A DNA stretch of 21,690 nt from a virus. The stretch covers positions 1 to 21,690 of the IMG/VR virus record IMGVR_UViG_3300033994_002165; one strand, written 5' to 3'. The position numbers were made by a program, and so were the translations under genes. Shown in pieces: positions 3,639 through 21,690 of the stretch (position 1 is its first letter; each line of letters opens with the position of its first letter). The notes beneath the pieces were generated by a model that saw only the letters and a program-made list of their open reading frames with translations, had not been told where the DNA came from and did no database searches.

Positions 3639-4651
3639 TGGAATTTGAATTAATTAAAAAGGATTTACAGAATAGTGGTTCGTTAGTAGCTAAAAACAAA
3701 CCAAACTCTTATTTTCAAACAAACATTGAAGATGAGAAAGGTGGGTTTGTGTATGCACCTTCTAAAAAAAGAATATATAATACCGATGAATTAAAGAAGA
3801 CAATTGATATAACTGTAGCTGAATTAATTCCAGATAGACAAGAAACACAATTAGATTTAGTACCACGTGTAATATATAATCAGGCAACTCGTTCATTAGA
3901 ACTTGCAAACGAAACTATATTATCACAATCCATAGTAATTGGAGGATTAGAGGCACAAGTATCAGAATTAACTTCAATATCGGCATCATTAGATATACAA
4001 TTAGATAATGAAAGATTATTAAGAGTTACTGCAGAATCAAACGCAGAACAACTTAGAAAACAATTTGTTTTGGTAAATGATACAATGCAAACTGCATTAC
4101 AACGTTCAGTTAGCGAGGGTATTGAAAAAACTGGATTACAAGCTAGAAATGAGGGACAGAATGCGACGGTTCAATCTCTTTCAAAGCAAGTGGATAGTTT
4201 AACTCAACAACTAAATGGTAAAAATGCCAGATTAGCAGAGGGAGCTAAAGCGGCTGCGGATTTTACCATTAGAGTAATTGAAAAAGGAGACCCTGCACAA
4301 AAGGAGTTATTTTTTGATGTTAAAACAGGTGAATCAACGGGTAAATGGAACAATGGCCCAACTGTAGAATTATTTAATACAACATTAGAGCCAATAACCG
4401 TTGATATAAAAATTAAAGGTACTCAAGCATGGATTAACGGACCATCAATAGTTAATATAGAACCTCAGCAAAAAGTTGAAGTAACGATGCAACCTGATTT
4501 TGGTGTAATTAATGGATTAGACCCTAGACCTAGAACATTCTTAGGAATAGCAGGAGGAGGTAAAGCTACAAACTATACTGGAACCGTATCATTTAAAAGT
4601 AAAAATGGAGAAGTTTCTTTAAGTTGTAATTTATACAAACATAGAAGTTAA
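3638..4651 (+). CDS. Probable baseplate/tail structural protein with coiled coil and C-terminal beta domain
   Basis: The family of this 337-residue protein is not recognised. Residues 1-80 are polar, with a motif GGFVYAPSKKRIYN. Two heptad-like stretches at about 85-145 (LELANETILSQSIVIGGLEA onward) and 165-205 (VQSLSKQVDSLTQQLNGKNA) predict a coiled coil and therefore oligomerisation. Residues 222-337 look like an immunoglobulin-like beta sandwich (VELFNTTLEPITVDIKIKG, then GPSIVNIEPQQKVEV, then TGTVSFKSKNGEVSLSC). No signal peptide or membrane segment is visible. The start overlaps the preceding stop as TAATG, and the next gene begins 5 bases after this stop. Context suggests a trimeric connector or short fibre on the baseplate, but this is inference. 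Confidence 0.75.
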   Translation: MEFELIKKDLQNSGSLVAKNKPNSYFQTNIEDEKGGFVYAPSKKRIYNTDELKKTIDITVAELIPDRQETQLDLVPRVIYNQATRSLELANETILSQSIVIGGLEAQVSELTSISASLDIQLDNERLLRVTAESNAEQLRKQFVLVNDTMQTALQRSVSEGIEKTGLQARNEGQNATVQSLSKQVDSLTQQLNGKNARLAEGAKAAADFTIRVIEKGDPAQKELFFDVKTGESTGKWNNGPTVELFNTTLEPITVDIKIKGTQAWINGPSIVNIEPQQKVEVTMQPDFGVINGLDPRPRTFLGIAGGGKATNYTGTVSFKSKNGEVSLSCNLYKHRS

Positions 4652-4656
4652 AAAAT

Positions 4657-6048
4657 ATGAGTTTAGATAAATTTAAAAATATTGATGATGTATTAAAGAA
4701 GGGAACATCTCTTACTACTGAGTTAAGTGCTACTGAGCTTAAGTTAATAGATAAGGGATTTATTCCAACCCCTTTTTTAATTGGTAATAATGATGTTTTA
4801 GAATTTATATTATATGATTCTACTAGTAACATATTAGAACAAAAAGATTATGGAAATGTTCGTTATATTAATGCAAACGAAATATCAAACTATATTATAA
4901 GAAGTGAAAATGTATTGGATACAATATATGATGGTGGCGGGTTTCTTATAGATGTTAAAAAATTAGTAAAAGAAGCAGGATACAACACAGGAGTATTTAG
5001 AGTGCAATTCAATTTTGTAAATAATAGGATTGGTTCTAAAATAGAAATGGATAGATTATGGATTCACGAAATATCACCATCTAGAACAGAATTAAGATTA
5101 TTACCTTATAATAATTTCAATACAAATATTGCATATGAAGCTGATATAGAAAGAGATTTAAATCAGGCATATGAAAGTTTTGTAGTAGGTAGATTTAGTG
5201 GAGATGAAGTTTACTCTGAAATAAATGAAATTATAAACAGATTAGATGTTCAAAAATTACAGGATACATTTGTTAAAATAAAATCAAAGGATTACATAGA
5301 TAGAATACAATATGAATTTGGTATAACAAACTACGACCAATTTTTTAATAAGGTATTAGAATCTATGAAAGAAGCGGTTAGACATGCATTGCTTCATAAA
5401 AATTCAATTATAGGAACTTCGGATTTTGGTAAACCATTAGGAGATGAAGTTGATTTTACATATTATAATAAAAACGATATTGTGAATCTTCTTAATAAAA
5501 AATTTAGAGATGCGTGTGATTTTCATCTTCCGAAAAGAACATTAGCTAATGAAGTATTGATAGATGCACAAACACAGGAAAGTATAGATAAATTAGCTAC
5601 ATTAATTCAAAAATTAGAATCAGATAAGGTTACAGAAAATGTTTCTACTGAAAGAGTATCTGTTCCAATACCAACGTATGGAGAAATTAAAGATGCGGTA
5701 ACATCTGTGACTAAAACAGCAGTTATTGTTCCTGGTGTAGAAACTCCTGTAATAATAGAAACTCCTGTTATGGAAACTCCTGCTACAACTGTATCAGATG
5801 TGATTAACGAAAGAGGTGGTGGTGGATTCTTAAGTAAATTTAGAAAAAAGGGAAATAAACCTAAAACTGGATTTTTAAATAAAGATATAACTAAAAAGAA
5901 ACTTGGTTTATTTGGAGGAAGGGGTGATATAAGTAATGGAGGAACAGGAGGCGGAACTACTACGGGTACAACGGAAGGTGATAGAAGAGCTGGAATTCCA
6001 TCTTCCATTGCAGAAAGGTTAAGAAATAAAAGAGATAACCAAAAATAA
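4657..6048 (+). CDS. Probable virion structural protein with Gly-rich, basic C-terminus
   Basis: In this 463-residue product, residues 1-150 are mainly beta and contain a striking segment: GYNTGVFRVQFNFVNNRIGS at 108-127, then LWIHEISPSRTELRLLP at 134-150. I have the impression that similar motifs occur in other tailed-phage structural proteins, but that is from memory and untested. Residues about 160-330 are largely helical. Residues about 345-385 are Thr/Val/Pro-rich (repeated ETPV). The last ~75 residues are Gly/Lys/Thr-rich and probably disordered (GGGGFLSKFRKKGNK; GGTGGGTTTGTTEGD). The gene is 5 bases after the coiled-coil gene and 7 bases before another Gly-rich protein. Its place in the baseplate block supports a virion role; the exact function is unknown. 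Confidence 0.75.
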   Translation: MSLDKFKNIDDVLKKGTSLTTELSATELKLIDKGFIPTPFLIGNNDVLEFILYDSTSNILEQKDYGNVRYINANEISNYIIRSENVLDTIYDGGGFLIDVKKLVKEAGYNTGVFRVQFNFVNNRIGSKIEMDRLWIHEISPSRTELRLLPYNNFNTNIAYEADIERDLNQAYESFVVGRFSGDEVYSEINEIINRLDVQKLQDTFVKIKSKDYIDRIQYEFGITNYDQFFNKVLESMKEAVRHALLHKNSIIGTSDFGKPLGDEVDFTYYNKNDIVNLLNKKFRDACDFHLPKRTLANEVLIDAQTQESIDKLATLIQKLESDKVTENVSTERVSVPIPTYGEIKDAVTSVTKTAVIVPGVETPVIIETPVMETPATTVSDVINERGGGGFLSKFRKKGNKPKTGFLNKDITKKKLGLFGGRGDISNGGTGGGTTTGTTEGDRRAGIPSSIAERLRNKRDNQK

Positions 6049-15491: not shown

Positions 15492-15938
15492 ATGTGGAAA
15501 TATCAAAATGGGGTAATCTCAGATATAAATGAGATTCCCTATGGAGCATTTGGGTTTGTGTATGAGGTGACGCATATTCCATCTGGTAAAAAATATATTG
15601 GGAGGAAGCAACTTATATCAGTTACCACAAAAGCATTAGGTAAAAAAGAATTAGCTGAAATAACTGATAAAAGAGCTAGTAAGAAAAAGAAGGTTCAAAA
15701 AGAGAGTGATTGGAAAACATATTACGGTTCTCACTCTGAAATCAAACAACTTATTAAAGAAGGTAAAAAAGAAGAGTTCGAAAGAACGATTATTGAATTT
15801 GCCTTTGCTCCAAAACATTTAACCTATTTGGAAACAAAATATTTATTCTCACTAGGAGTTTTGGAAAACGGAGATGTTTATTTCAACGATAATATATTAG
15901 GAAAGTTTTTCCGAAAAGATATACCGAGATATGAGTGA
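15492..15938 (+). CDS. GIY-YIG-like nuclease-fold protein
   Basis: This 148-residue protein has a recognisable GIY-YIG-like core: GFVYEV at 21-26 in the GIY position and KKYIGRK at 33-39 in the YIG position, with Tyr24, Tyr35 and Arg38 as expected catalytic-type residues. A lysine-rich segment follows (about 58-72). Then come DWKTYYGSHSEIKQLIKEG and EFERTIIEF, and a helix with Glu114 (HLTYLETKYLF) in the place of the metal-binding glutamate. The end NDNILGKFF is typical of small phage members of this group. GIY is changed to GFVY, a tolerated variation. No separate DNA-binding domain is visible. It overlaps the next gene by 8 bases (ATGAGTGA). It could be a free-standing homing or repair nuclease; substrate and activity are unknown. 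Confidence 0.72.
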   Translation: MWKYQNGVISDINEIPYGAFGFVYEVTHIPSGKKYIGRKQLISVTTKALGKKELAEITDKRASKKKKVQKESDWKTYYGSHSEIKQLIKEGKKEEFERTIIEFAFAPKHLTYLETKYLFSLGVLENGDVYFNDNILGKFFRKDIPRYE

Positions 15939-16755
15939 TTTATTAATTACAATTGGTGATTCTTTCACATATGGTGAAGGATTACAATTTCATCTATGGA
16001 AAAATAGATATACTAATACCTTTGATATGTTCAAAGGAAAAACTTCATATGAACCTTGTCAGACTGTAAGTGAAACATTTTCGGAATTCTATGAGTTTAG
16101 AACCAATAACAATTATAGTGGTGTATTAGGAAAACTATTAAATACTCCAAAGGTATCTAATTTTGGAAATGGAGGTAGTAACTATGGTGCAATCGAAACT
16201 CTTGATATATGGTTAGATTATTTGAAATCGGAAAAGGCAATACATCCAAAATTATTAGTTTTCCAATTCACTAACGTTGTAAGAGATATTGGGCATACCC
16301 AAAGTAAATATAGAAGTACAGGTGGTATTTTTGGGCCTGAATTTTATGAAGATATAAAATATGCAATTGCTAGATTAAATCCGGTTCACATCCAAACCAA
16401 AGAGGATGTTGAAAAAATGAACCCAATCCTTACCAAAATATTCCAAATAATGCTCTTGGAAGTTAAAAAAAGATTTAGTATCTTAGAGGATAAATATGGG
16501 TGTAAATGTATCTATCTAATCGGTTCAGTAGAAGAATATTCCAAACATTTGATATATGAGGTTGTTAAAGATGACCCATATAATTTACCGATTATATACA
16601 ATGATACCCCATACGAAAGTTGGGATATTATGAATCGAACGAACAAATGGACATTAAGGGAAAATATCGAAGTAAACGATGACCACCCCTGCTTAGATTC
16701 CCATCATTGGTTAGCAAACCAACTCTACAAAAAGTATTTGGAAATATCGAAATAA
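15931..16755 (+). CDS. SGNH/GDSL hydrolase-like protein 1
   Basis: The 274-residue product shows SGNH-hydrolase blocks in order. Block I is LITIGDSFTYGEG, with Ser11 as candidate nucleophile. Block II is SNFGNGGSNYGAIET, with Gly79/Gly81. Block III is VFQFTNVVRD, with Asn115. Block V is CLDSHHWLANQLYKKYL, with Asp256 and His259 in DxxH spacing. All four catalytic-type residues are therefore present. SGNH enzymes are esterases, often acting on acyl groups of glycans. No signal peptide is visible, so it would act in the cytoplasm or on the virion. It overlaps the GIY-YIG-like gene by 8 bases. Its last codons carry the -33 box of the next promoter and its stop lies in a palindrome. The substrate is unknown; DNA or sugar modification or receptor processing are all open. 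Confidence 0.75.
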   Translation: MSDLLITIGDSFTYGEGLQFHLWKNRYTNTFDMFKGKTSYEPCQTVSETFSEFYEFRTNNNYSGVLGKLLNTPKVSNFGNGGSNYGAIETLDIWLDYLKSEKAIHPKLLVFQFTNVVRDIGHTQSKYRSTGGIFGPEFYEDIKYAIARLNPVHIQTKEDVEKMNPILTKIFQIMLLEVKKRFSILEDKYGCKCIYLIGSVEEYSKHLIYEVVKDDPYNLPIIYNDTPYESWDIMNRTNKWTLRENIEVNDDHPCLDSHHWLANQLYKKYLEISK

Positions 16756-16768
16756 TTTCGTATATTTG
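16737..16768 (+). promoter_or_regulatory. Bacteroidota-type promoter before the second SGNH gene
   Basis: TTTG (16737-16740), 20 bases, then TATATTTG (16761-16768) matches the Bacteroidota -33/-7 form. The 13-base core TTTCGTATATTTG differs by one base from that of the promoter at 19785-19816, which has the same spacing. The -7 box ends 3 bases before the ATG, so the transcript would be essentially leaderless. Confidence 0.6.
16748..16760. repeat. Perfect palindrome CGAAAT-A-ATTTCG in the promoter spacer
   Basis: A 6-bp perfect inverted repeat with a one-base centre fills the 3' half of the promoter spacer and abuts the -7 box. It also contains the TAA stop of the upstream gene (16753-16755). 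Its placement is that of an operator that would block RNA polymerase, but no regulator is known. Confidence 0.7.
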
Positions 16769-16771
16769 GGT

Positions 16772-17494
16772 ATGAAAAAATTGTATCTTTTCGGAGACTC
16801 ATTCTCGTTATTTACCGGAGATATTAAAGAATCCCATCGTAATGATGTAGAATTCAATACACACCATTCATTATCAAATGACCATATTCTTAAATTAGTT
16901 AAGTTAAAACTTAATAAATTAGTAGAAAATGGAATCGATTCAAAGGGTTCGGCTATATTAGTTCAGTTTACTGTTTGCAGTAGAATATGCGTTTTACAAT
17001 CTAATATGAGCGAAACCAGAGAGTTTATGCAAAAAGTATATGGGTATGAATCTGATATGGTTAAATATGGAGATGTTAGTATATTTAATAACTACTATCG
17101 TACTTTATATCCCAATATGTCTTCAATGGATTCAGAATTGGTGAAGATGGTATTCATGCCTTATTTAGGCTTCTTTATTAATCAAAATGAAATTAAAATT
17201 TTTAATGATTTAGTTTTGGAAATTAGTTTATTAAAAAAATTAGCAGAAACAATCGGAGTAAAGTTGGAGTACTTTTTATACTCATCTGATTTTGATAAAA
17301 AATTAATTAGTACGAAATCCGGAGGAGAACAAATATCTAAAAGTGAACACATTATGTTTGATGGACACCATAGTTTACAATCATATATTGCCGAAAATAG
17401 ACCGGAATATTTTGTATCTAAGATGGATATTCACTTTAATGATAATGGAAATAGATGGTATATTAATTGGTTAAAAGAAAGATATGATATCTGA
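16772..17494 (+). CDS. SGNH/GDSL hydrolase-like protein 2 (divergent)
   Basis: This 240-residue product begins MKKLYLFGDSFSLFTGD, with the GDS block I at once (Ser10). A strand AILVQFTVCSRI sits in the block III position, but the asparagine seen in the first SGNH protein is replaced (FTVC instead of FTNV). The end MDIHFNDNGNRWYINWLKE supplies an Asp-x-His pair in the block V position. The fold therefore looks kept while one oxyanion-hole residue may be lost. The ATG at 16772 is preferred over a TTG two codons upstream, which lies inside the promoter's -7 box. The 3' end overlaps the primase gene by 11 bases. It may be a paralogue of the preceding gene with a changed substrate. Function unknown. 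Confidence 0.68.
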   Translation: MKKLYLFGDSFSLFTGDIKESHRNDVEFNTHHSLSNDHILKLVKLKLNKLVENGIDSKGSAILVQFTVCSRICVLQSNMSETREFMQKVYGYESDMVKYGDVSIFNNYYRTLYPNMSSMDSELVKMVFMPYLGFFINQNEIKIFNDLVLEISLLKKLAETIGVKLEYFLYSSDFDKKLISTKSGGEQISKSEHIMFDGHHSLQSYIAENRPEYFVSKMDIHFNDNGNRWYINWLKERYDI

Positions 17495-18413
17495 AATAGA
17501 TAAACAATATGTGCTAGGCCAAATGAATGTAGTTTTGGGAGAAGGAAGAAACTTAGGTAGTTCCGAAATCCAATACTATTGCCCATTTTGTTCACACCAT
17601 AAACCTAAACTACAGGTCAACTTAGAATCACAAAAGTGGAGATGTTGGGTTTGCAATGCAAGAGGTAAAAAGGTTCACTCTCTATTAAAGAAGTTAAGTG
17701 TAGATTATGATGTTATCCAAAGGGTAATGAAAATCTATGATGAATCTGGATATATAGCAAAAGCCGAAGATGAAGAATTTGTAGAAATACATTTACCATC
17801 TGAATATAAAACACTATTAGATAATCAGCATATTATTGAATTTAGAGTTGCTTATAATTATTTAAAGAAAAGAGGTATAAGTGATAAGGATATTCTTAAA
17901 CATAAAATAGGATATTGTGATGGTGGTATGTATAAAGGAAGAATCATCGTACCATCTTACAATTCACTTCATCAACTTAATTTCTTTTTGGCTAGAAGTA
18001 TTTATCCAGATGAGAAATTAAAATATAAGAATCCACCTGTATCAAAGAATATAATTGGATTTGAATCAATGATAAATTGGAAAATGCCGGTAACACTTTG
18101 TGAAGGAGCATTTGATGCAATTGCAATCAAACGAAACGCTTCTCCCATATTAGGTAAAACACTTTCCAAAGAATTAACTGATAAAATCTTAACAGAGAAA
18201 CCATCGATTAATATTGTATTAGATGATGATGCAATGGGAGATGCGATTAGGCATTACGAATACTTAACTGCAAATGGAATCGATTGTAAGTTAGTTAGAT
18301 TAAGTGGCAAAGACCCTTCGGAAATGGGATTCGTAGAAGTAACAAAACAAATAGAACAAAACACAACCTCATCATTTGAGGATTTAATAAGATTAAAACT
18401 ATCGTTTACATAA
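17484..18413 (+). CDS. DNA primase, zinc-ribbon plus TOPRIM (DnaG/T4 gp61 type)
   Basis: The 309-residue product has both primase domains. The zinc ribbon is at about 30-62 (CPFC with Cys33/Cys36 and CWVC with Cys54/Cys57). The N-terminal core of the catalytic region follows at about 125-195 (RGISDKDILKHKIGY; RIIVPSYNS; LARSIYP; KYKNPP). The TOPRIM acidic motifs are Glu207 in LCEGAFDAI and the IVLDDDAMGD triad 247-249. KDPSEMG near 276 matches the usual DP-x-E/D-x region. It is slightly shorter than T4 gp61 (about 340) and lacks the C-terminal helicase-binding domain of cellular DnaG. It would make RNA primers for lagging-strand synthesis with a phage helicase not seen here. It overlaps the SGNH gene by 11 bases and is joined by TAATG to thymidylate synthase. 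Confidence 0.87.
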   Translation: MISEIDKQYVLGQMNVVLGEGRNLGSSEIQYYCPFCSHHKPKLQVNLESQKWRCWVCNARGKKVHSLLKKLSVDYDVIQRVMKIYDESGYIAKAEDEEFVEIHLPSEYKTLLDNQHIIEFRVAYNYLKKRGISDKDILKHKIGYCDGGMYKGRIIVPSYNSLHQLNFFLARSIYPDEKLKYKNPPVSKNIIGFESMINWKMPVTLCEGAFDAIAIKRNASPILGKTLSKELTDKILTEKPSINIVLDDDAMGDAIRHYEYLTANGIDCKLVRLSGKDPSEMGFVEVTKQIEQNTTSSFEDLIRLKLSFT

Positions 18414-19390
18414 TGAATAACTTAGACAAAAAATATCAACAACTATTAAGTGATATCATTGAATTTGGTGTAGAGAAAGAAGATAGAACAGGAACTGGCA
18501 CTATCTCAGAATTTGGTCATCAAATACGCCACAAAATGAGTGAAGGATTTCCATTGCTTACTACAAAAAAGATGCATTGGAATTCCATTGTAACGGAACT
18601 CTTATGGTTTCTAAGAGGTGATACTAATATTAAATTCCTATTAGATTATGATTGTCATATTTGGGATGGTGATGCTTATAAGAACTATGCTTCAAAAACA
18701 TCTCTTGATGCGGATGGGCAACTTACAAAAGAAGAGTTTATTAAAAAAATCAGAACCGATGAAGCATTTGCAACTCAATGGGGAAATTTAGGACCAATTT
18801 ATGGTAAACAATGGAGAGATTGGAATGGAATTGACCAAATTCAAAATCTAATCAACGAACTCAAATCAAATCCTGATAGTAGAAGATTGATGGTAAGTGC
18901 TTGGAATGTAGGTGAGTTAGACAAAATGGTTTTACCTCCTTGTCATTATGGATTCCAAATTTATACTAGAAAAACAACAAGAGATGAAAAGATAGTTCAT
19001 CCTGGAAAATATAGAGCAATTTCTCTAATGTGGAATCAACGAAGTGTAGATACATTTTTGGGATTACCTTTTAATATTGCATCTTATGGATTGTTATTAG
19101 AGATTATCGCAAAGGAAGTGAATATGATACCTGATGAATTGATTGGAAACTTAGGAGATGTTCATTTATACAAAAACCATATTGAACAGGCAAAAGAACA
19201 AATCAGTAGAACATCATTTGGTTTACCAACAATACAAATTACCGAAAGGAATTGGTATCAACACCAATTGGTTAAAGAACGATTGGGTGAAAAAACTTTA
19301 GATGAAAAACTTAAAAGTTATAGACCTGATTGTTTTGAATTAATAGGATATGAATCACATCCAAAAATTAAAGCACCACTAAGTAATTAA
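18413..19390 (+). CDS. thyA: Thymidylate synthase (ThyA family)
   Basis: The 325-residue enzyme methylates dUMP to dTMP using methylene-tetrahydrofolate, raising the thymine supply for an AT-rich phage genome. Family signatures are complete: EDRTGTGT with Arg25, LLTTKKMHWNSIVTELLWFL, GPIYGKQWR, the SRRLMVSAWN phosphate-binding pair Arg157/Arg158, LPPCHYGFQ with the catalytic Cys177, QRSVDTFLGLPFNIASY, and GDVHLYKNHIEQ. It is about 60 residues longer than the E. coli enzyme. Part of the excess is an insert at about 85-123, in the place where the Lactobacillus casei-type enzyme also has one. It starts at a TAATG overlap with the primase and is followed after one base by the cupin, so all three are co-translated. 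No key residue is missing. Confidence 0.96.
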   Translation: MNNLDKKYQQLLSDIIEFGVEKEDRTGTGTISEFGHQIRHKMSEGFPLLTTKKMHWNSIVTELLWFLRGDTNIKFLLDYDCHIWDGDAYKNYASKTSLDADGQLTKEEFIKKIRTDEAFATQWGNLGPIYGKQWRDWNGIDQIQNLINELKSNPDSRRLMVSAWNVGELDKMVLPPCHYGFQIYTRKTTRDEKIVHPGKYRAISLMWNQRSVDTFLGLPFNIASYGLLLEIIAKEVNMIPDELIGNLGDVHLYKNHIEQAKEQISRTSFGLPTIQITERNWYQHQLVKERLGEKTLDEKLKSYRPDCFELIGYESHPKIKAPLSN

Positions 19391-19784: not shown

Positions 19785-19816
19785 TTTGGTCGTCTCACCT
19801 TTTTTTCGTATCTTTG
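19785..19816 (+). promoter_or_regulatory. Bacteroidota-type promoter for the nuclease-ATPase fusion gene
   Basis: TTTG (19785-19788), 20 bases, then TATCTTTG (19809-19816) is an exact match to the Bacteroidota -33/-7 pattern. The start codon at 19839 lies 22 bases after the -7 box, giving a short A-rich leader (ACAACATATAGTATAAAC). The core TTTCGTATCTTTG is shared, with one change, with the promoter at 16737-16768. Confidence 0.8.
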
Positions 19817-19838: not shown

Positions 19839-21690
19839 ATGCTCAATATAAAAGTAGATTACATCTATCACTTAGCGGATTTACACATCCGTAACTTAAA
19901 ACGTCATAAGGAGTATAGAGAAATTCTAAATCAATTCTTAGTGGATGTAGATTCGCAAAAGAAAGAAAACGCTATTATTTATTTAGCGGGTGATATTGCT
20001 CACGCTAAAACGGAAATGAGTCCGGAATTAGTTAGAGAAATCACTTGGTTCTTCAATGAATGTGCAAATCGATTCCCTACATTTGTAATCACAGGAAACC
20101 ACGATTGTAACTTAAATAATATGGATAGATTGGATGTATTAACTCCTATCTGTGATAATTTAAACAACCCAAATTTATATTACTTAAGAGATACCGGTAC
20201 AACACATATCAATGATGAATTAACTTTTACGGTATATTCAATTTTAGATAAGAAAGCAAACTGGCCTTTAGGTAAAGATGTAGAAGGAAAGAAAAAGATT
20301 TGTTTCTTTCACGGGCCGGTAGATGCGGCTAAAACTGATATTGGTTATGTGGTATCATCTAACAATTTTACACCCGATATGTTTGATGGGTTTGATATGG
20401 TATTGATGGGGGATATTCACAAAAGACAAATCGTTCAACAAAGAGATAAGGCAAATGGTAAACCGATTGTAGTTTATGCAGGTTCGATTGTTCAACAAAA
20501 TCACGGAGAATACTTAGAGAATCATGGTTACCTATTATGGGATGTAAAGAACGAAACATTTGAAGAGTTTAATATTCATAACGATTATGGTTACCTAACT
20601 ATTGATGTAACTAATGGTGTTATACCACAATGGGTAATGGATGAGATTGGAACTAAACTTCCTAAACAACCACGCTTAAGAGTTAGATTTCAGGAAACAG
20701 AAGCAGCGGATATTAAATTAGTATCAACTGAGTTACAAAAGATGTTTAACATTTCTGAGATTACCGTCACTCGACAAGATACTTTGAATTCTATGAAAAC
20801 AAAGAATCGTAATGCTAGAAACTTAGCGGGTAATGTTAAAGATGTAAACGTTCAGAATGGGTTAATTAAGGAGTATTTAGAGAGGCAATTTCTTTTAGAT
20901 GATGAAACCCTTAATAAGGTAATTGAGATTAATAATAACGTTAATACGAAGATTACACATGAGGATACGGATAATATTCTATGGATTCCTAAGAAGTTTG
21001 AATTCAGTAATATGTTCTCATATGGTGAAGGAAACAAAATAGAGTTTGATAGAGCAAAGGGAATCATTGGTTTATTTGCACCGAACACACAGGGTAAATC
21101 ATCCCTATTCGATTCACTTTCATTTTGCATATTTGATAAGTGTAGTAGAGCATTTAAGGCTACTCATATTATGAATAATCAAAAAGATACATTCAGTTGT
21201 AAATTTAATTTTGAGATTGATGGTATAGATTATTTTATAGAAAGGGAGGCACACACTACTAAAACTGAAAAGGTTAAAGTAAATGTTAATTTCTGGAGAG
21301 TAGTAGATGGAATCAATGAATCACTTAATGGTGATGAGAGAAGAAATACAAATGATGTAATCAAAAAGTATTTAGGTACTTATGAAGATTTTGTAATGAC
21401 TTCACTTTCATTGCAAGGTAATAATGCTTTATTCATTGATAAATCACAATCGGAAAGAAAAGATATTCTTGCACAATATATCGGTGTAAATGTATTCGAT
21501 AAATTATTTGATGTTGTAAACGAAGATAATAAAGAAGCTACAATCCTATTAAAGAATTTTAAAAAGGATGATTTCTCTTTGAGATTAGCGGAATTAGATG
21601 AGATTGTTAAAACTAACGGAAAGGTGTTTAATGAGTTAGTTGAAAAGAAAGATGAGTTTGAGCAAGATAAAACCGAAGCAGAAAGGAAGT
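19839..21690 (+). CDS. Fused Mre11/SbcD-type nuclease and Rad50/SbcC-type ATPase (3' partial)
   Basis: One frame runs from ATG 19839 past the window edge: 617 codons, no stop. The first half has the Mre11/SbcD (T4 gp47) metallophosphoesterase motifs: ADLHIRN (Asp14, His16), LAGDIAH (Asp52), ITGNHD (Asn87, His88), FFHGP (His158) and MGDIHKRQ (Asp192, His194). A capping-like region continues to about residue 370. With almost no linker, the second half starts as a Rad50/SbcC (T4 gp46) head: ILWIPKKFEFSNMFSYGEG (379-397), Walker A APNTQGKSS (Lys420), Q-loop SLQGNN (Gln526), then QSERKDILAQYIG and the start of a coiled coil. In T4 the two proteins are separate subunits that resect ends for recombination-dependent replication. 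The distal coiled coil, signature and Walker B lie beyond the window. Confidence 0.88.
   Translation, partial: MLNIKVDYIYHLADLHIRNLKRHKEYREILNQFLVDVDSQKKENAIIYLAGDIAHAKTEMSPELVREITWFFNECANRFPTFVITGNHDCNLNNMDRLDVLTPICDNLNNPNLYYLRDTGTTHINDELTFTVYSILDKKANWPLGKDVEGKKKICFFHGPVDAAKTDIGYVVSSNNFTPDMFDGFDMVLMGDIHKRQIVQQRDKANGKPIVVYAGSIVQQNHGEYLENHGYLLWDVKNETFEEFNIHNDYGYLTIDVTNGVIPQWVMDEIGTKLPKQPRLRVRFQETEAADIKLVSTELQKMFNISEITVTRQDTLNSMKTKNRNARNLAGNVKDVNVQNGLIKEYLERQFLLDDETLNKVIEINNNVNTKITHEDTDNILWIPKKFEFSNMFSYGEGNKIEFDRAKGIIGLFAPNTQGKSSLFDSLSFCIFDKCSRAFKATHIMNNQKDTFSCKFNFEIDGIDYFIEREAHTTKTEKVKVNVNFWRVVDGINESLNGDERRNTNDVIKKYLGTYEDFVMTSLSLQGNNALFIDKSQSERKDILAQYIGVNVFDKLFDVVNEDNKEATILLKNFKKDDFSLRLAELDEIVKTNGKVFNELVEKKDEFEQDKTEAERK

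Follow-up and report, generated by a model that had tools for sequence, protein, structure and literature searches.

The locus analyzed here raises the question of whether a tailed phage encodes the nuclease and the ATPase of the Mre11–Rad50 machine (gp47/gp46, SbcD/SbcC) in one polypeptide. In the following, the window denotes the whole stretch of 21,690 nucleotides (IMG/VR record IMGVR_UViG_3300033994_002165, positions 1–21,690). On its plus strand, an open reading frame (19,839–21,689) starts with the ATG at 19,839, runs through 617 codons without a stop, and leaves the window at its end; the region 19,839–21,690 was annotated as the 5′ part of an Mre11(SbcD)–Rad50(SbcC) fusion gene that continues past the window. 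Residues 1–260 (19,839–20,618) constitute the phosphodiesterase core of Mre11/SbcD, in which D14/H16 (DLH), D52 (GDIAH), N87/H88/D89 (GNHD), H158, and D192/H194 (GDIH) are all present. This core is followed by a capping domain (residues 261–334; 20,619–20,840), a helix-loop-helix (HLH) of the Rad50-binding type (335–369; 20,841–20,945), a fusion linker without an in-frame start codon (370–382; 20,946–20,984), and the N-lobe of Rad50/SbcC with the start of its coiled coil (383–617; 20,985–21,689), all on the plus strand. The ATPase part contains the Q-loop residue Q526 and the Walker A stretch APNTQGKS, including K420, which conforms to the Walker A pattern [AG]x4GK[ST]. Pfam detected both Metallophos (residues 9–195, E 3.4e-8) and AAA_23 (residues 390–608, E 2.5e-8) in the same window protein, and PHROGs likewise matched an SbcD-like and an SbcC-like family. 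Profile matches to solved structures were obtained for SbcC (6s6v_C, E 4.7e-26), Rad50 (5f3w_B, E 5.6e-19), and Mre11 (3qg5_C, E 4.5e-9). The preliminary description of this DNA had read a nuclease followed by an ATPase with no stop from 19,839, and every residue it named was located; the 47-then-46 gene order it recognized is also kept, as the Mre11 half precedes the Rad50 half. The metal-ligand motif residues of the nuclease are invariant across 23 aligned relatives, in which the last motif is GDIH and not GHxH. The five phosphodiesterase motifs and a fold with a capping domain, both expected of an Mre11/SbcD nuclease, were found, as was the architecture of one ORF comprising Mre11, HLH, a short linker, and Rad50 known from the Mimivirus protein R555, while the T4-type arrangement of separate gp47 and gp46 genes was not. 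In one relative (L064, 9989–12,979), most of the capping domain is absent, although the HLH, linker, and ATPase are kept and the fusion is otherwise intact.

The remainder of the gene was read from relatives because the window's own record stops at 21,690. The protein of the contig L003, which is 97.6% identical to that of the window over 617 residues, has a full length of 1059 residues, of which the window covers the first 617. It contains the zinc hook CKYC at residues 734–737, the ABC signature CSGMEK at 970–975, Walker B (D1001/E1002), the D-loop (D1008), and the H-loop (H1034). Hence, the Rad50/SbcC set of Walker A, Q-loop, hooked coiled coil, signature, Walker B, D-loop, and H-loop is complete in L003, whereas the window itself reaches no further than Walker A, the Q-loop, and the coil start. 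The hook, signature, and Walker B that were anticipated past 21,690 thus occur in the same frame. We consider it highly probable that this gene encodes a one-chain Mre11–Rad50 (gp47–gp46, SbcD–SbcC) nuclease/ATPase, which would assemble into M2R2 and serve end resection and tethering in phage replication.

The same ORF would be seen if an assembly or sequencing error had joined neighboring genes of a real phage possessing separate gp47 and gp46. Deposited genomes may contain joins of this kind: a single 1009-residue SbcD–SbcC CDS is present in Listeria phage LMTA-57 (L181, 2054–5083), whereas its relative cka4 has SbcD and SbcC as two genes in different frames with a slight overlap, so that the LMTA-57 gene looks like a recent join or a sequence artefact. 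The window was compared with the contigs L002, L003, and L004 from three metagenomes, in all of which the frame is intact. They differ from the window at 64, 140, and 165 nucleotides, of which 51, 116, and 131, respectively, are third codon positions. Within the junction (codons 335–395), 0, 19, and 16 differences were counted; 0, 16, and 13 of them are at third positions and none at second positions. The other two frames of the same strand contain several stops over the junction. Its dN/dS evaluated with L003 as the reference was 0, 0.025, and 0.076 in three of six relatives, and was not computable for the other three owing to synonymous saturation. The junction is under protein-coding selection. 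Furthermore, Q339 and W382 are spaced 43–47 residues apart across 164 aligned sequences (counting the window and duplicates), 146 distinct IMG/VR contigs share the frame, and the fusion also occurs in the named genome of Microcystis phage Mel-JY01. An assembly error was rejected since other contigs carry the same frame, and its chance is negligible; the frame error that the preliminary description had named as a danger to its reading did not appear in the contigs compared. The fusion of the window, being in-frame across relatives, does not look like a join of the LMTA-57 type.

Another possibility is that the fused ORF additionally yields free ATPase, as a separate Rad50 that is translated from an internal start or released by cleavage in the linker. 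The codon of M392 is ATG in 161 of the 164 sequences, as would suit an internal start. This methionine, however, is part of the FEFSNMFSYG motif, where the first ATPase strand lies, and initiation there would remove most of that strand, because the split T5-like D13 (MLILKYMEFSNILSYG) starts upstream of the equivalent motif. The sole purine run in the 20 bases before M392, judged by eye, is AGAAG located 16–20 bases upstream, which is far for a ribosome site, and no in-frame ATG, GTG, or TTG was found in the window between codons 319 and 392. A strong internal start for gp46, which had been put forward as counter-evidence to a fusion, is not evident, and a separately produced Rad50 is improbable. 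Upstream of the whole gene, a match to the Bacteroidota-type promoter motif TTTG-N-TAnnTTTG was observed at 19,785–19,816, immediately ahead of the fusion gene. This motif gave 3 matches against 1.21 expected, and 10 of 100 shuffles reached as many, which is not significant.

A monomer model of the fusion was built using AlphaFold2 with 23 relatives and was of moderate quality (mean pLDDT 71.6, pTM 0.40); the C-lobe is of low confidence, with a pLDDT below 50 for residues 957–1018. In this model, the HLH is composed of helices 336–350 and 355–369, followed by the linker (370–382) and the first ATPase strand (383–390). When the model was submitted to Foldseek, the first 12 places were entries of Mre11, SbcCD, or Mre11–Rad50 complexes. 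The nuclease and cap part was aligned with SbcD (7dog_A, a structure comprising the nuclease and capping domains) by VIA-align with a Z of 23.7 and an rmsd of 3.2 for 275 aligned residues, the match spanning model residues 6–312; the rows of that output are Mre11-type and other phosphoesterase chains, since a single domain is enough to occupy all of them. Among BFVD models, the best matches came from giant viruses, Tupanvirus included, and are DNA repair proteins, the first with 24% identity; this ranking hints that the fusion may group with R555.

The placement of the HLH is as described for Mre11 in the available text of Yoshida, Claverie and Ogata 2011 (PMC3175470). Since the HLH is in place and the linker leads straight into the first ATPase strand, the join is predicted to sit at the normal contact between the subunits. 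The same text estimates that 9–12 residues, about 28 Å, suffice from the end of Mre11 to the start of Rad50. With a linker of approximately 13 residues, two chains could therefore form M2R2 at a fixed 1:1 stoichiometry. Two fused chains would pair via their Mre11 domains and, in the ATP-bound state, via their Rad50 heads; the product would be the M2R2 machine assembled from two proteins in other phages, with the nuclease HLH staying put and the short linker running directly into the ATPase head. In the recombination-dependent replication and the repair of phage DNA, such a machine may open hairpins as well as resect and tether DNA ends. A metal-dependent nuclease activity is likewise inferred, though it may differ from the usual one because the first His of GHxH is replaced by Asp (GDIH), as reported for R555. 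In R555, the third Asp of GDxxD is His and the equivalent of His206 is Asp, according to the passages of PMC3175470 on its active site; by this description, the window shares both changes (GDIAH and GDIH). The pair GDxxH and GDxH is not unique to fusions, as it is present in the split T5-like D12 too. A single-chain Mre11–Rad50 of fixed stoichiometry would suit structural and single-molecule work.

The author of the preliminary description knew of no such fusion described from a phage, and named a database search showing it to be common and described as a result that would refute the reading. Its anatomy and motifs of one polypeptide hold, while its novelty among phages does not. In the available text of PMC3175470, Mimivirus R555 and twelve more Mre11/Rad50 fusions are reported, 13 in total; such fusions are described there from Mimivirus, plasmids, bacteria, eukaryotes, Bacillus phage 0305phi8-36, and aquatic viral metagenomes. 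Fusions of this kind have been known since 2011, and the window is a well-supported further example. R555 resembles the window's protein in that Mre11 comes first, the HLH is kept, and a short linker leads to Rad50 within one ORF; it differs as a protein of 1351 residues from a giant amoebal virus, in contrast to the 1059 residues of the tailed-phage protein. The assignment to a tailed phage is based on baseplate genes; the contig of L003 is 164 kb long. T4 gp47/gp46, T5-like D12/D13, and E. coli SbcD/SbcC belong to the same families with the same motifs and gene order as the fusion, but each pair consists of two separate proteins. According to the same passages of PMC3175470, the homologs of R555 from aquatic samples most likely belong to viruses, phages among them, and the metagenomic fusion was confirmed for a few long scaffolds only. 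The present data support the suggestion that part of these homologs belong to phages, and add full-length, primase-linked examples, some of them in named phages. In the accessible portions of later papers, a 2021 survey of jumbo phages named SbcC and SbcD as partners and left a fusion unmentioned, a 2013 ocean virome paper cited Yoshida et al. 2011, and a 2019 giant-virus paper treated Mre11 and Rad50 as subunits. Among the matches listed in our literature search, no paper on the fusion in PAU or Tenacibaculum phages was found, and the name Microcystis phage Mel-JY01 appeared in none.

To see how the fused and split forms are distributed, relatives were collected by two scans of IMG/VR, which took the best 80 of 117 relatives and the best 80 of at least 600 stretches, respectively. 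The resulting 79 and 80 loci correspond to 146 distinct contigs once 13 seen twice were removed. A complete single ORF of 997–1068 residues is present in 115 of them, and in the remaining 31 the ORF reaches the contig end without a stop; split Mre11 and Rad50 genes were found in none of these 146 best-matching contigs. A third scan used a Rad50-only alignment as the query, by which fused genes are not favored, and again took the best 80 of at least 600 stretches. Among its 79 newly stored loci (of 80 listed), at least 12 of which lie on contigs already present in the earlier scans, 78 are fused and none is split, with one (L198) being undecidable as the contig end cuts the locus; the script called 76 fused, and L218 and L252 were added, as their Mre11 match lies in the same frame and ORF. 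These samples represent the nearest relatives rather than the entire collection, and more distant split relatives could be missed because each scan took the best 80 matches. In cellular genomes, four relatives were detected, all in MAG contigs of 4–20 kb, which are labelled Nitrosopelagicus (L085), Chloroflexi (L086), bacterium (L087), and Gammaproteobacteria (L088) and carry a fusion each. In the three of them whose upstream sequence amounts to 1.2 kb or more, a primase lies upstream, so these contigs are probably phage and likely misbinned. Plasmid records gave 9 partial SbcC-like matches, none of which covered 80% of the query.

Fused genes were also identified in named phages. Mel-JY01 (WWT39521.1) has a protein of the same architecture with approximately 41% identity, annotated as an AAA domain containing protein; as in the window, a primase and a GIY-YIG gene lie upstream, but its host is a cyanobacterium. 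Tenacibaculum phages pT24 and PTm1, Sphingomonas phage PAU (gp288), and Chryseobacterium phage MA9V-1 each have one CDS of 1301–1326 residues, which matched phrog_35725 in all four cases and aligned over 96–99% of the fused protein of L083; PTm5 and MA9V-2 were also among the matches of the search that gave pT24 and PTm1. In these four phages, Pfam and PHROGs matched Metallophos and/or SMC/AAA_23/SbcC-like families, with both halves recognized in some and one half in others. Foldseek identity between the fusion and pT24, PTm1, and the 1301-residue protein H9NCG5 is 14–16%. The four CDSs are annotated as metallo-phosphoesterase, and other copies from pT24 and PTm1 as "DNA repair" or "DNA repair exonuclease"; the fusion is concealed by names like "metallo-phosphoesterase" and "AAA domain protein". 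The Bacillus phage case in the available text of PMC3175470 contradicts the notion that none had been described, and the phages named here carry such fusions too.

In a quick tree built from 23 fused and 7 split rows (30 in all), with several long branches flagged and R555 absent, 21 of the fused rows form a single group that contains no split row (SH-aLRT 98). The window falls in this group, as do pT24, PTm1, PAU gp288, and MA9V-1. The two other fused rows, LMTA-57 and L084, were placed among split phages. L084 (MT837445.1, 2–3469), a human gut phage fragment, carries an SbcD–SbcC fusion of the canonical GHIH type with its 5′ end cut by the contig, and this fusion is probably independent of that of the window. 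A simple-pattern motif table mis-assigned some motifs (e.g., T4 motif II and PTm1), and was disregarded for those phages. From the tree, fusion looks repeated overall but single for the window's group. The loss of one stop/start junction, proposed earlier as its origin, is plausible; it would be an old event because no split member was found in the window's clade. More tentatively, and with somewhat less than even confidence, we propose that the fused form is an old and fixed trait of a very large lineage of tailed phages, to which the window, Mel-JY01, and the Tenacibaculum/PAU jumbo phages belong, that it arose once and is inherited beside the primase in most of this lineage, and that mimivirid R555 descends from this lineage or shares an ancestor with it. 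In the 484-kb phage L082 (LR756508.1), an insert of about 1 kb (4580–5634) breaks the Mre11 part shortly after GDIHKRQ, leaving the fusion gene without one open frame. The insert, which may be a homing insert or a mobile intron, contains an ORF of 305 residues whose product has Cys pairs and an endonuclease domain of the TnsA-like type; when L082 was scanned for introns with Rfam, 3 matches were obtained, all under the gathering scores, with no known intron.

The genomic neighborhood bears on the role of the fusion. A DnaG-type primase (17,484–18,413, plus strand; phrog_47, E 1.7e-42) is encoded upstream in the window. Once four loci with less than 1.2 kb of upstream sequence are left out, 162 of 163 loci (counting duplicates) have a primase on the same strand, upstream of the fusion; the exception is L083. 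In 74 of the 162, the fusion begins 6 or 9 bases past the end of the primase match. Primases resembling the SPO1 and Twort enzymes were present on scaffolds with aquatic R555 homologs as well, according to the available text of PMC3175470, which further recounts the recombination-dependent replication of T4. The primase synteny fits a replication of this type, and the fusion may act in a cluster with the primase. Alternatively, the fusion could chiefly be an attack or counter-defense nuclease, for example for degradation of host DNA, and not one for replication or repair. PADLOC matched residues 396–1051 to the Lamassu defense protein LmuB (E 7e-23), and T4 gp46/gp47 are annotated as needed for both recombination and host-DNA degradation. 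LmuB, however, is itself an SMC/Rad50-like ATPase, and the match is expected from this shared ancestry; the constant company of the primase fits a core replication role. A chiefly offensive function is accordingly quite improbable, but degradation of host DNA could be a second task of the one-chain replication and repair machine.

Two genes, thymidylate synthase and cupin, lie between the primase and the fusion in the window, and each has matches in 15 of 168 loci. The thymidylate synthase has 325 residues in the window (18,413–19,390) and 348 in L003 (8506–9552). Farther upstream, two adjacent ORFs (15,931–16,755 and 16,766–17,494) appear SGNH-hydrolase-like by eye (GDSFTYG and GDSFS), and Pfam gave no match for either at an E of 0.001. 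A protein with a SegE-type GIY-YIG endonuclease domain is encoded at 15,492–15,938 and is matched in 95 of 168 loci, a count that includes duplicates and the window's own locus (L001), so this gene may be resident in the neighborhood rather than a recent homing insert.
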